The notes under the pieces: generated by a model
What the model was told of the DNA's origin: nothing
Databases searched by the model: none
Seen by the model: the letters and a program-made list of their open reading frames with translations, nothing else
Position numbers and translations under genes: made by a program
Part shown: positions 8,669 through 35,899 of the stretch, piece by piece
How the letters are laid out: every line of letters starts with the position of its first letter
How positions within the stretch are numbered: position 1 is the stretch's first letter
From: Jiella sonneratiae
GTDB lineage: Bacteria; Pseudomonadota; Alphaproteobacteria; Rhizobiales; Rhizobiaceae
DNA length: 64,000 bases
Direction: 5' to 3'
NCBI RefSeq assembly: GCF_017353515.1
Contig: NZ_JAFMPY010000008.1
Location: forward strand, 1 to 64,000

Positions 8669-8676
8669 CCTGATCG

Positions 8677-10812
<2,136 letters not shown>

Positions 10813-13481: not shown

Positions 13482-13512
13482 CGTCTGGCCTGTCAGAGTG
13501 GCTCCCCTGCGA

Positions 13513-13559
13513 CCCCCCTCTGCCCTGCCGGGCATCTCCCCCACAAGGGGGGAGATCGG
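13513..13559 (+). repeat. Palindromic repeat family 1, unit
   Basis: This unit runs CCCCCCTCTGCCCTGCCGGG followed by CATCTCCCCCACAAGGGGGGAGATCG. It contains two hairpins: GCCCTGCCGGGC, and the stronger ATCTCCCCC / GGGGGAGAT. Near-identical units occur at 13642-13685 (inverted) and four times inside ileS. Confidence 0.9.
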
Positions 13560-13641
13560 AGGCGTCGCCGACACCACCATCTGCCTCGACGTCTGTACGG
13601 AGCGATCGGTTAAAAGCAGGGATGCGGCGCCGATGCAGGAT

Positions 13642-13685
13642 CGATCTCCCCCCTTGTGGGGGAGATGCCGGCAGGCAGAGGGGGG
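13642..13685 (-). repeat. Palindromic repeat family 1, inverted unit
   Basis: This is the reverse complement of the unit at 13513-13559, with a two-base shortening in the GCCGGCAGG part. Together the two units, about 80 bases apart, could fold into one long stem in the thiE-thiD spacer. Pairing of one unit with an inverted second is the same layout seen twice in ileS, so the pair is probably the mobile form. Confidence 0.9.
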
Positions 13686-13740
13686 TGTCTGGAGCTACGG
13701 CTGACGATGGGGTTCGTCGGATCACCGCGGCGCAATCGCA

Positions 13741-14679
13741 ATGACCCGCCCCACCATCCTCGTCGTCGGCGGCACCGATTCCTCCGGCGGCGCCGGCCTT
13801 GCGGCCGACATCCGCACGGCCGCCGCCCATGGCGTCGATGCCCGGCTGGCGGTGACGGCGGTGACGGCGCAGACCGACCACAAAGTCGGCACGGTGGCGC
13901 CGATGCCCCCTGCCCTCGTCGCCGAACAGATCGCCTTCGCGCTGGAAGACGGCTGCGTCGTCGCCGTCAAGATCGGCATGCTCGCCGAGGCGGCGATCGT
14001 CGCGGCGGTGGCGGAGGCGCTGGCGGGCTTTGCAGGGCCGATCGTCCTCGATCCGGTGATCGCGGCCTCCTCCGGCGGGCTGCTGTTGAGCGAGGAAGGG
14101 ACCGCCGGCCTGATCGAACGACTGTTGCCGATGACCACGCTGGTCACGCCCAACCTGCCGGAGCTTTCGATTCTGGCGAGCCGGGCAGCCGGCGGCTCGA
14201 TTGCCGAGTATCCGGCGCCGGCCAGCCAAACCGGCTCGTGGGGAATGGGAGAGGCGCGGCCGCAGTCTCATACGGTTTCCGGCAGATCACTTCGTGATGC
14301 CGGAAACAAAGACGCTCATTCGCCCCGCGGGCTTGATACGAGCCCCGCTCTGATCGAGCAGATCTCGTATCACGGGATGTCCCGAAACGCCGCTCTCGTC
14401 CGCAGCCTTTTTGCGGCCGGCGCCGGGGCGGTGCTCGTCAAGGGCGGTCACGGCGACGGGCCCGACGCCGCCGACCTCTTCTTCCGTTCGGGCGAAACGG
14501 CGCCCCGCCGCTATGCGGCGCCGCGCCTCGACGTCGCCCTGCGCGGCACCGGCTGCATGCTGGCGACGGCCATCGCCTCAAACCTTGCGGCCGGTCTTGC
14601 CCTGGAAGACGCCTGCGGCGCGGCGAAGGACCACGTGCGCGCGCTTTTCGAGCGCGAAGCCGGACGCCGCCGGGGATAG
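13741..14679 (+). CDS. thiD: Hydroxymethylpyrimidine (phosphate) kinase ThiD with an in-frame repeat insert
   Basis: ThiD phosphorylates HMP and HMP phosphate to the pyrophosphate used by ThiE. The ribokinase-like hallmarks are DSSGGAGLAADIRTA near the start, VLVKGGHGDGPDAADLF, and the anion-hole motif RGTGCMLATAIAS near the end. At 312 residues it is about 45 longer than usual (265-270). The excess lies between residues about 150 and 212, after VTPNLPELSILA, and about 36 codons of it (14267-14375) are a copy of palindromic repeat family 2. The frame is kept and all motifs on both sides are intact, so the enzyme may still work. It follows thiE after a 259-base repeat-filled gap and may need its own promoter. 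Confidence 0.9.
   Translation: MTRPTILVVGGTDSSGGAGLAADIRTAAAHGVDARLAVTAVTAQTDHKVGTVAPMPPALVAEQIAFALEDGCVVAVKIGMLAEAAIVAAVAEALAGFAGPIVLDPVIAASSGGLLLSEEGTAGLIERLLPMTTLVTPNLPELSILASRAAGGSIAEYPAPASQTGSWGMGEARPQSHTVSGRSLRDAGNKDAHSPRGLDTSPALIEQISYHGMSRNAALVRSLFAAGAGAVLVKGGHGDGPDAADLFFRSGETAPRRYAAPRLDVALRGTGCMLATAIASNLAAGLALEDACGAAKDHVRALFEREAGRRRG
14267..14375 (+). repeat. Palindromic repeat family 2, copy inside thiD
   Basis: About 109 bases, with two hairpins. The first has arms GTTTCCGGCA (14275-14284) and TGCCGGAAAC (14298-14307) with an inner TCAC/GTGA stem. The second has arms GATACGAG (14335-14342) and CTCGTATC (14364-14371). A copy about 90% identical by eye lies at 20868-20973. It has no stop codon in the thiD frame and encodes residues about 176-212, including GNKDAHSPRGLDTSPALIEQ. 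Confidence 0.9.
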
Positions 14680-20609: not shown

Positions 20610-21077
20610 TGCACCGACCCTTCATGAGGTTGCGATGAGCGGCGGTAGCACGGCGCGCGAAGAAAGACGCGGAGATTCTTGCTCCGCGGCCCGAATCGAC
20701 ACGGGCATCTTCGTCGATCCCCTGCCCGTCGTCCCGGAACCGCATCTTGACCAAGCCTTGCAAAGTCTCGACGCGCAGGCCGGGCCGTTCCGTCTGCCTG
20801 CCGACGAGCGCGCTTTTCAAGCTGTTGCGCCGGCACGTGGCCGAAGGCGGGCCCTCCGCATGCCGCGTCACACGGTTTCCGGCAGATCACGTCGTGATGC
20901 CGGAAACAAAGACCCTCATTCGCCGCGCGGGCTCGATACGAGCCCCGCTCTGATCGAGCGGATCTCGTCTCAGAGGGGACCGCGCCAAGCGCCGTCCGCG
21001 CGGCAGTGGCGAGGCTTGCGACGCAGGTCTAGACGCATATACTGTTCTTTCCGCAAGGGAATGTGGAAGGACGATCG
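20610..21077. other. Spacer holding palindromic repeat family 2
   Basis: No gene is supported here. The left part (20610-20866) shows no recognisable signal beyond the presumed promoter of the 43-residue protein. The right part contains the family 2 repeat at 20868-20973 and the leader of the following secreted-protein gene, with a GGAAGG ribosome site near 21066. Confidence 0.5.
20868..20973 (+). repeat. Palindromic repeat family 2, intergenic copy
   Basis: This copy matches the insert in thiD over about 106 bases. The first hairpin (GTTTCCGGCA / TGCCGGAAAC with inner TCAC/GTGA) is perfect. In the second, the right arm has changed to CTCGTCTC, so the GATACGAG pairing is broken. Translated in the same frame as the thiD copy it reads GNKDPHSPRGLDTSPALIER with no stop. 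Confidence 0.9.
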
Positions 21078-32614: not shown

Positions 32615-35600
32615 TCAGGCGGCGAGGCGCCCGGCGGCCTTCAGCTCGCGCAGCGCCTTGGCGTCGCGGGCGGAAACGTCCGGGAACTCGGGATCGGCAC
32701 CGACGTCGCCGGTGATCTTCCACGACCTGGCGCATTTCGCCCCTTCGGCCTTGGCGAAGACGACGGCGACGCCCGGAACGTCGGCGAGGGTGAAGGCGCC
32801 CTCCGGCGCGGCCTCGCCGGAGATCTCGATCCCAGACGTGATGCAGATCTCGGCGAAGTCGGCGGCTGCGACCAGCGCGCGGGTCTCGGCGTCGGCGACG
32901 TGGACCGTCGGCCAGGCCTCGAGCGAGGAGCCGATCACCTTGTCGCGGCGCTTTTCCTCCAGCGCGCCCATGACGACGCGGCGCACCCGCCGCACCGCCT
33001 GCCAGCGGGCGGCGAGCGCCTCGTCGCGCCAGGCGGGATCGACCTCGCGGAACTGCTCGAGATGCACCGACACCGCCTCCGGATGCCGCGACAGCCAGGC
33101 TTCCTCCATGGTGAAGGGCAGCATCGGCGCGAGCCAGGTGACCAGATGGTCGAACAGGGTGCGCACCACCTGCAGCGCCGCCTTGCGCTTTACCGAGGAG
33201 ATCGGGTCGCAATAGAGCGCGTCCTTGCGGACGTCGAAATAGAAGGCCGAGAGCTCGACGACGACGAAATCGAGCAGGGCGCGGGAGATGCGCTTGAAGT
33301 CGAAGGCGTCGTAGCCCCTGGTCACCACCTCATCGAGCTCGGCGATCCGGTGCAGCATCAGCCGTTCCAGCTCGGGCATGTCGGCGTGAGCCACCTCGTC
33401 GCCGGTGTCGTGGGCGAGCGTGCCGAGCATCCAGCGGATGGTGTTCCTGAGCTTGCGGTAGGAATCGACGTTTGTCTGGAGGATCGTCTTGCCGAGTCTC
33501 AGATCCTCGGAATAGTCGGACGAGACCACCCAGAGCCTCAGGATGTCGGCGCCGGACTGCTTGATCACCTCCTGCGGGGTGACGACGTTGCCGAGCGACT
33601 TCGACATCTTGCGGCCCTCCTCGTCCATGACGAAGCCATGGGTGAGGACGGCGTCGTAGGGCGCGCGGCCGCGCGTCCCGCAGCTTTCCAGGAGCGAGGA
33701 GTGGAACCAGCCGCGATGCTGGTCGGAGCCTTCGAGGTAGAGGTCCGCCGGCCATTTCAGATCCGGACGCTTTTCCAGGCAGAAGGCGTGGGTCGAGCCG
33801 GAATCGAACCAGACGTCGAGGATGTCGCGGACCATGGCCCACTTCTCGCCGTCATGGCCGTTGCCGAGGAAGCGCTCCTTGGCGCCCTCGGCGAACCACG
33901 CATCGGCGCCCTCCTCCGCGAATGCCTTGAGGATGCGCTCGTTCACCGCCTCGTCCTTCAGGACGTTGCCATCCGCGTCGGCGAAGACGCAGATCGGCAC
34001 GCCCCAGGCCCGTTGGCGGGACAAAACCCAGTCCGGCCGCTCGGCGATCATGCCGCGCAGCCGGTTCTGGCCCGACGCCGGGACGAAGCGGGTCTCGTCG
34101 ATGGCGGCAAGCGCGCGATGACGCAGGGTATCTTCGGTCGATGGAGAGCCGATCTCCCCCCTTGTGGGGGAGATGCCCGGCAGGGCAGAGGGGGGTGCGC
34201 CAAGCGCCGATCCGCCAGAAGGTTGCGCCGAGGCGCCCCCCTCTGTCGGCTTCGCCGACATCTCCCCCGCAAGGGGGGAGATCGGCGCCGCGCCCTCCAG
34301 CCCGTACCCGCCGAGATCCCGGTCCATATGCACGAACCACTGCGGCGTGTTGCGGAAGATCACCGGCTTCTTGGAGCGCCAGCTATGCGGATAGGAATGC
34401 TTCAGCCGGCCGCGGGCCAGAAGATTGCCGGCGGCAATCAGCGCGTCGATGACCCTCTTGTTGGCATCGCCCTTCTTGCCCTTGTCGTCGATGACGCGCG
34501 CCGGCCCCTCGGGCGCATCCGGCCCGAAGCCGGGCGCGTCCTTGGTATAGAAGCCGTCGTCGTCGACGGTGAAGGGGATGGCCGTGTCGATGCCGCGCCG
34601 TTCGAGATCGCGGCGCATCTCCATCCAGGCGTCGAAGTCCTCGCGGCCGTGGCCGGGCGCGGTGTGGACGAAGCCCGTGCCGGCATCGTCGGTGACGTGA
34701 TCGCCGGCGATGAGCGGGACGGGGAAGGCATAAGGCACGGACGATGACGCGCCGATCTCCCCCCTTGAGGGGGAGATGCCCGGCAGGGCAGAGGGGGGTG
34801 CCTCGGCACCGCCCCTACCCCCCTCTGTCGGCTGCGCCGACATCTCCCCCGCAAGGGGGGAGATCGGGCGCCACGCCTTGAGAGGGTGATCGACGACGAG
34901 GCCGCGGAGATCGGCGGCAGGGACATCGGCGACCTTATGCCAGCCGCCTTCCGGCAGGCGCGCCTTGGCGAAAACGTCGGCGGCCAGCGCGTCGGCGAGG
35001 ACGTAGCGCTCGCCCTCTTTCGCCCAGCGCGGATTCTCGGCGTCGTCCGGCGCGGTCACCTCGTAAAGGCCGTAGGCGATGCGATCGGAAAAGGCGATGG
35101 CGCGGTTGCCGGGGATGGTCCAGGGCGTCGTCGTCCAGATGACCACCGAGGCGCCCGCCAGCGTGCCTTCGCCGCGAACCGGAAACTTCACCCACACCGT
35201 ATCCGACTCGTGGTCGTGATACTCGACCTCGGCCTCGGCGAGTGCGGTCTTTTCCACCACCGACCACATCACCGGCTTGGAGCCGCGATAGAGCTGGCCG
35301 GACATGGCGAACTTCAAGAGCTCGCCGGCGATCACCGCCTCCGCACCGTAGGCCATGGTGAGGTAGGGATCCTTGAAGTCGCCCTCGACGCCGAGGCGGC
35401 GGAACTCGCCGGCCTGGACGTCCACCCAGTGTTCGGCATAGGCGCGGCATTCCTTGCGGAACTCGATCATCGCCGCGGCATCGCTGAGGTCCGGCTTCTG
35501 ACGTCCCTTGGAGCGGTAGTTCTCCTCCTCGATCTTCCACTCGATCGGCAGGCCGTGGCAGTCCCAGCCGGGCACATAGTTGGCGTCGTAGCCGCGCATC

Positions 35601-35899
35601 TGGAAGGAGCGGTTGATGACGTCCTTGAGGATCTTGTTCAGCGCGTGGCCGATGTGGAGATTGCCGTTGGCATAGGGCGGCCCGTCGTGGAGGACGTATT
35701 TCGGCCGTCCCGCGGAGGCCTGCCGCAGCTTGCCGTAGAGATCCATGCCGTTCCACTTGTCGAGCCATTCCGGCTCGGCCTTGGGAAGGCCGGCGCGCAT
35801 TGGGAATTCGGTCTCTGGCAGGAACAGCGTCTTGGCGTAGTCCACCGTGCCGGCGGAGGCAGCGTCGGAAAGTCCGGTGTCGGTCGTCTTGTCGGTCAT
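32615..35899 (-). CDS. ileS: Isoleucyl-tRNA synthetase with two in-frame repeat inserts
   Basis: A class I synthetase of 1094 residues that charges tRNA-Ile. HIGH ([16 protein letters not shown]) and KMSKS ([12 protein letters not shown]) are intact, and the editing domain has [15 protein letters not shown]. It is about 100 residues longer than usual alphaproteobacterial enzymes (about 970-1000). The surplus consists of two inserts made from palindromic repeat family 1: residues about 345-382, just before the [12 protein letters not shown] editing block, and about 539-583, between [10 protein letters not shown] and [13 protein letters not shown]. Both keep the frame, and each encodes [15 protein letters not shown] and [16 protein letters not shown]. 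As a single essential enzyme, it is presumably active. No C-terminal zinc-binding cysteine cluster was seen. Confidence 0.95.
34150..34285. repeat. Palindromic repeat family 1 pair inside ileS (insert 2)
   Basis: Two inverted units: 34150-34196 (GATCTCCCCC start, with the GCCCGGCAGGGC hairpin) and 34236-34285 (CCCCCCTCTGTCGG, with the TGTCGGCTTCGCCGACA hairpin, ending CAAGGGGGGAGATCGG). About 40 bases lie between. The pair encodes about 45 residues of ileS in frame. Confidence 0.93.
34753..34867. repeat. Palindromic repeat family 1 pair inside ileS (insert 1)
   Basis: Units at 34753-34799 and 34818-34867 face each other with 18 bases between. They are nearly identical to the pair at 34150-34285, with small changes (TTGAGGGG for TTGTGGGG, and GGCTGCGCCGACA for GGCTTCGCCGACA). 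The pair encodes about 38 residues of the ileS editing domain region. Confidence 0.93.

Follow-up and report, generated by a model that had tools for sequence, protein, structure and literature searches.

In-frame palindromic repeats at two loops of isoleucyl-tRNA synthetase in Jiella sonneratiae and related Alphaproteobacteria

The best-known palindromic inserts that keep the reading frame of their host genes are those of Rickettsia and Wolbachia, both of which are host-bound. The palindromic elements of Rickettsia (RPE) are repeats of 100-150 bp that lie in frame in conserved genes, and RPE-7 occurs in the R. japonica genes for isoleucyl-tRNA synthetase and the phenylalanyl-tRNA synthetase beta subunit; some Rickettsia orthologues hold different RPE groups at the same loci, for which the authors favoured a common origin and kept insertion hot spots open (PMC3767692). 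In Wolbachia, WPE-like in-frame inserts are described for addA, addB and priA (PMC4224334). The intragenic GTAG/CGTC REPs are short hairpins, often arranged as inverted dimers, some of which lie in ORFs; the survey places them in tRNA synthetases, a UvrD/REP helicase and DNA ligase, and reports different REPs at about the same recB site in two Xanthomonas species (Di Nocera et al. 2013, PMC3733652). Closer to the organism studied here, the dispersed rhizobial repeats RIME, Sm-repeats and AB and C palindromes are described as intergenic (PMC2573895).

We analyzed a window of 64,000 nucleotides (positions 1 to 64,000 of contig NZ_JAFMPY010000008.1) from the 5.15-Mb draft genome (76 contigs) of J. 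sonneratiae, in which ileS carries two inserts built from a dispersed palindromic repeat, family A. As with the RPE, family A is also found in frame in conserved protein genes (9 of the 63 places examined, ileS, glyS and uvrD among them), and the parallel with Rickettsia drawn in the first-pass annotation is apt in that these are in-frame elements in an essential gene that belong to a genome-wide family. Compared by description rather than by sequence, family A differs from the RPE in coming from another order of Alphaproteobacteria, in having its own unit with ATCTCCCCC/GGGGGAGAT, and in that most of its places are not in genes; moreover, the families that supply the inserts at a single loop have no visible sequence in common, and one of them (family D) is not palindromic where it stands alone. 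The Wolbachia elements, likewise set side by side by description, share the in-frame position but belong to another lineage and to other genes. The stem of 9 and loop of 5 in family A fit the CGTC REPs (stem 8-9 bp, loop 4-5; PMC3733652), but neither a GTAG nor a CGTC tetramer was found on either strand beside any of 224 stem ends, and family A is therefore not placed in those superfamilies. It may be one of the named rhizobial repeats (RIME, Sm-repeats, AB or C palindromes), since it is abundant in Sinorhizobium and Rhizobium plasmids. For comparison with MITEs, its units are inverted and the borders of the element are not fixed. Our searches of the open-licence PMC literature brought up no earlier description of in-frame repeats in the ileS of this clade; what is added here is the lineage, the repeat unit, and two IleRS loops used by families without a visible common origin.

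Two inverted repeat pairs in ileS

The ileS gene (32615-35899, minus strand) encodes an isoleucine--tRNA ligase of 1094 aa (TIGR00392, 742.9 bits; cutoff 621.4). It is the single full-length IleRS of its genome among the matches listed, the remaining listed matches being weak or partial, and comparisons with PDB entries confirmed the product as IleRS and nothing more. The closest named IleRS records among those listed are from Jiella species; very near records may be missing from this set.

Two inverted pairs of family-A units, which the first-pass annotation had placed in frame in ileS, are indeed present. Site 1, the first in gene order (34752-34867, minus strand), lies between the flanks HPLK and VPLIAGD and consists of units at 34752-34799 (plus) and 34818-34867 (minus). 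Site 2, the second in gene order (34149-34285, minus strand; downstream flank TLR.RAL), consists of units at 34149-34196 (plus) and 34236-34285 (minus). All four units have perfect ATCTCCCCC/GGGGGAGAT stems, the palindromic unit is 48 bases, and both inserts are in frame and encode peptides of the pattern originally proposed. That extra residues are present was correctly seen, but the sizes given (about 38 and 45) differ from ours: relative to congeners without the insert, site 1 is longer by 45 residues (53 vs. 8; L018-L020) and site 2 by 46 (64 vs. 18; L019 and L020).

The sequence motifs of the enzyme are unaffected, as previously noted. HIGH (residues 82-85; 35645-35656), KMSKS (residues 764-768; 33596-33610) and an editing-type motif (residues 407-418; 34646-34681), all on the minus strand, are intact, as is a second editing-type motif (residues 255-261); apart from residue 416, the HIGH, KMSKS and editing-type residues are invariant across 40 aligned IleRS, the one from the window included. 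We take residues 407-418 to be the editing-site motif, and the site 1 insert, which ends about 20 residues ahead of it, presumably falls within the CP1 editing domain.

The DNA-fold z scores of the two inserts are -7.7 and -7.0. For each insert, five stretches of the same gene served as controls, and the lowest control values are -1.9 and -2.2. These scores, together with the 136 genomic sites that match the hairpin pattern compared with none for the reversed pattern, exclude a chance origin of the ileS palindromes. In the AlphaFold model of this IleRS (mean pLDDT 66.4), both inserts are of very low confidence, residues 347-387 and 532-588 falling below 50 and having no secondary structure; parts of the catalytic core are also below 50. 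Exposure of the insert loops at the protein surface, which the model may indicate, is weakly based given its poor overall confidence.

Family A across the genome and within genes

The pattern ATCTCCCCCN5GGGGGAGAT, with up to 2 mismatches, identifies the 136 sites. The family-A unit (consensus of 112 units, CCGATCTCCCCCCTTGCGGGGGAGATGCCCGGCAGGACAGAGGGGGGT) has a 9-bp hairpin stem with a 5-base loop, a second small hairpin and a GAGGGGGG tail, and occurs mostly in inverted pairs. We examined 63 places, holding 114 of the 136 hairpin sites; 37 are pairs in ‘-+’ order, 10 are in the ‘+-’ order seen in ileS, and 16 are single or mixed. Spacing is 107-112 in 23 of the 37 ‘-+’ pairs and 96-101 in 6 of the 10 ‘+-’ pairs. 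The absence of stop codons in the frames used, pointed out in the first-pass annotation, extends further than stated there, with 71 of 112 units being stop-free in all six frames (28% for shuffled units, 30% for 48-mers from the window).

Beyond ileS, the only family-A copy in the window is the element at 13512-13689 (units 13512-13559 and 13642-13689), whose ‘-+’ order is the reverse of that in ileS, as already observed. It apparently lies between two genes, and the codon model of its flanks favours a different frame on each side. Outer flanks are common to 6 of the 10 ‘+-’ pairs, and the ileS pairs lack them; the borders of the element are not fixed. The ‘+-’ copies with common outer flanks (cgattggcct / gaagcgtcgcc; L133, L152, L154, L166, L169 and L176) suggest that a second element exists, defined by ends of its own.

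A search of 397 genomes of the order found the exact hairpin in 18, namely 15 of the 21 from the same family (own genome included) and 3 of the remaining 376, with 1-3 copies each; family A is largely confined to its own taxonomic family. Among plasmid records, 184 match the window's intergenic element, including 73 from Rhizobium and 70 from Sinorhizobium. At the Rfam gathering threshold no family was found for the repeat, the sole match in the window being a TPP riboswitch (8671-8779, plus strand; 77 bits, gathering score 54.3). The window also has a 105-base direct repeat, 93% identical (14268-14372 and 20868-20972).

With a codon model applied to both flanks and one unbroken frame required, 9 of the 63 places, in 7 genes, are in frame within coding sequence; the other 54 fall short. 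These are ileS (two), a cobN-type gene (two), glyS (glycyl-tRNA synthetase beta), uvrD, a bchB-like gene, a lipoyl acyltransferase (E2) gene and an ATP-dependent DNA ligase gene, and Pfam domains of the same protein flank or span the insert in 8 of the 9, the ligase having them on one side only. The model was trained on 11 ORFs (ileS, which has Pfam support, the window gene that we take to be groEL, and nine with Pfam matches), mostly running from stop to stop and so including some upstream sequence, and it is partly circular because 6 of the 7 decorated genes are among them; the Pfam evidence for the 8 places is separate from it. It replaced a model trained on long ORFs, in which a shadow frame outscored the true ileS frame at site 2. 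We rejected valS and an ABC-transporter ORF, where open frames are long but the flanks lend no support to an insert within the gene. One place near the end of the uvrB frame is below the criterion and may be coding. With the usual coding density of 85-90%, copies that landed at random would mostly fall in genes. ISP-type frames are used by 13 of the 16 units in the nine in-frame places (hand tally; units not independent).

Of 18 stretches probed in relatives, 10 lie in frame within a gene, and inserts occur at the same loop of UvrD in 6 genomes (own included; four genomes lie outside the count) and at the same loop of GlyRS beta in 3. This same-loop recurrence and the additional decorated genes (glyS, uvrD, cobN, bchB-like, ligase and E2) go beyond the first-pass annotation, which had called for the genome-wide count.

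Several further repeats were seen in these genes. The organism's own UvrB frame (L153, 3381-6980, minus strand; 1200 aa stop to stop) seems to hold three repeat types, a D-like one near the N-terminus and, in the C-terminal tail, a B/E-like unit together with a family-A hairpin. A D-like stretch lies in the GlyRS beta frame of G001 (L189, 2175-2231), and similar residues at the same place in the organism's own GlyRS (L172) seem, from the sequence, to be a second insert in that enzyme. The bchB-like gene with the in-frame family-A pair (L136, 1917-4964, plus strand; Oxidored_nitro and PCP_red domains) points to photosynthesis genes in this genome.

Recurrence at the two IleRS loops

In the aligned part of 83 IleRS, extra stretches of ≥15 residues occur in three loops only; the third concerns 3 rows and is non-repeat by eye, and the site 2 loop is up to 98 residues longer than in the shortest congeners. 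Of the 83 rows, 7 have a repeat-derived insert at site 1 and 17 have one at site 2. The repeat is thus missing from 76 and 66 rows, respectively, contrary to what would be seen if relatives shared these residues as ordinary sequence, and congeners without the insert have short loops at both sites.

Eight site 2 inserts in Mesorhizobium and relatives (L043, L050, L052, L056, L059, L060, L061 and L087) have z scores of -3.2 to -8.7. The site 2 count includes rows accepted on palindromy without a dispersed-copy match (L052, z -8.7; L059, z -5.2), one accepted only on peptide likeness to L059 (L049, z -1.5), and two accepted on a match to family D (L180, z +0.8; L027, z +0.5). The long site 2 loops of L023, L025, L040, L041 and L044 were excluded from the repeat count, and an apparent site 1 insert in L087 was a matching artefact. 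Extra residues at site 1 in G006 (L185) did not behave as a repeat (z +0.4), and that row was dropped, leaving the 83; its ileS (G006 C1:1745500-1755000) is not contained in a single open frame (901 and 247 aa), which sequencing errors may explain.

On the core tree, the inserts require 5 changes at site 1 and 12 at site 2 (gains and losses together), of which well-supported branches force at least 4 and at least 9, respectively. The families involved, labelled by eye, differ in abundance. Family B, at site 1 in G001 and G004, has 19 matches, most of them to one short arm, and family C has at least 237 matches over 10 genomes. Family D, with 17 matches (0-5 per genome), shows no palindromy where it stands alone (the two z scores of +0.8 and +0.5); 13 of the 17 are in gene frames by hand tally (ileS 4, uvrD 6, uvrB 2, glyS 1), the copy in the organism's own uvrB being placed in frame by its open frame alone. 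That D is a gene-dwelling repeat is only a lead, since by loci four genes stand against four places not shown in frame. Because relatives hold other repeat families at the same two spots, IleRS appears to have two loops that tolerate parasitic DNA repeatedly.

Within the genus, the states of site 1/site 2 are A/A in the window, A/C+D in G002, B/A in G001 and B/C+D in G004, i.e., all four combinations, which requires replacement, repeated insertion or recombination. Exchange of ileS segments between species may account for part of the recurrence, a tentative explanation that we consider clearly short of even odds and that is compatible with selfish insertion, so that the likelihoods of the two overlap. 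The four combinations fit such exchange, and the window and G001 share bases beside the site 2 insert, yet the tree groups the window with G002. Between genera, however, identity is not raised around the inserts. The flanks of the window and Aquibium L040 are 0.51 (left) and 0.77 (right) identical over 50 codons each, with a gene average of 0.73; for Aquibium L049, which lacks the site 1 insert, the values are 0.55 and 0.84. Inserts of different families, moreover, cannot be one event.

Evolution and origin of the inserts

Where species share an insert type, the first, second and third codon positions of the insert show 75, 73 and 128 differences over 697 codons, compared with 179, 142 and 799 over 2944 codons of their flanks; these are hand sums in which the pairs are not independent and the insert spans take in a few native loop residues. 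Two of the 15 uvrD pairs were summed (G002-G004 and G001-G007), the others comparing inserts of different make-up; over all 15, the differences are 351, 336 and 388. Third positions contribute 46% of the differences in inserts and 71% in flanks, with 33% expected in the absence of constraint. The small codon-position bias suggests that the peptide is tolerated rather than useful, and it would be only weakly constrained; some amino-acid constraint is possible, as 46% exceeds the unconstrained value.

It is unlikely, on these data, that the inserts were selected for enzyme function, for instance through tRNA binding or, as proposed in the first-pass annotation, through proofreading altered via the CP1 domain. 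The short distance from site 1 to the motif at residues 407-418, the same-loop inserts of several species (glyS in 3 genomes, uvrD in 6), the predominance of ISP-type frames and the weak third-position excess that persists within inserts would all agree with a function. Against it, the bias is small relative to the flanks, the same loop holds unrelated sequences, some congeners are insert-free, and unrelated proteins carry inserts too. No sign of altered proofreading emerged from the data.

Hairpin stems differ at 4 of 180 positions, compared with 101 of 720 elsewhere in the insert (5 pairs), a comparison in which the definition of the stem biases the stem count downward. Plain DNA neutrality does not explain the low divergence of the stems; upkeep of the stems at the DNA level is, because of this bias, only a lead.

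We consider it probable (roughly 0.85) that the ileS inserts are non-autonomous selfish repeats that survive in permissive loops. Family A would be a dispersed palindromic repeat whose copies spread via a putative mobiliser. In an essential gene, selection for frame would leave as survivors the in-frame copies in loops that tolerate extra residues, presumably surface loops, hence two such loops in ileS, and the unusual six-frame stop freedom of the unit would help copies survive. After insertion, the peptide would evolve with little amino-acid constraint, and a resident insert could lose length, gain length or give way to other repeat families.

Inverted hairpin pairs with a preferred spacing also recall REPINs or REPs mobilised by a RAYT, a Y1 tyrosine transposase. 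REPINs are known to need a RAYT, and of the 10 genomes of the genus 8, own genome included, gave no Y1_Tnp match (the other 2 have one); with GTAG and CGTC also missing beside the stems, we regard this mobiliser as quite improbable. An assembly error, conceivable in a draft of 76 contigs, or inheritance as ordinary residues is hardly credible, given that an insert of the same kind lies at site 1 in the separately assembled genomes of Jiella endophytica, Aureimonas glaciei and Aquibium sp. ELW1220, that same-kind inserts occupy the same loops in other species, and that most IleRS rows have no site 1 insert.

A more speculative extension of selfish insertion, which we hold to be possible but doubtful, is that essential genes act as safe harbours, since a copy within one cannot be lost by a frame-breaking deletion. 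A small convergent set of loops (two in IleRS, one in UvrD, those of GlyRS beta, and the ends of UvrB) would be recolonised by unrelated repeat families in distant Alphaproteobacteria, while exchange with other genomic copies would keep the DNA of the stems similar; family D may live chiefly inside such genes.

The inserts described here come from a lineage near the rhizobia, in which housekeeping and repair enzymes carry in-frame repeats and several families use the same loops. These loops offer natural replicates for the question of whether such places are insertion hot spots or merely tolerant, and they identify places where IleRS and UvrD accommodate tens of additional residues.
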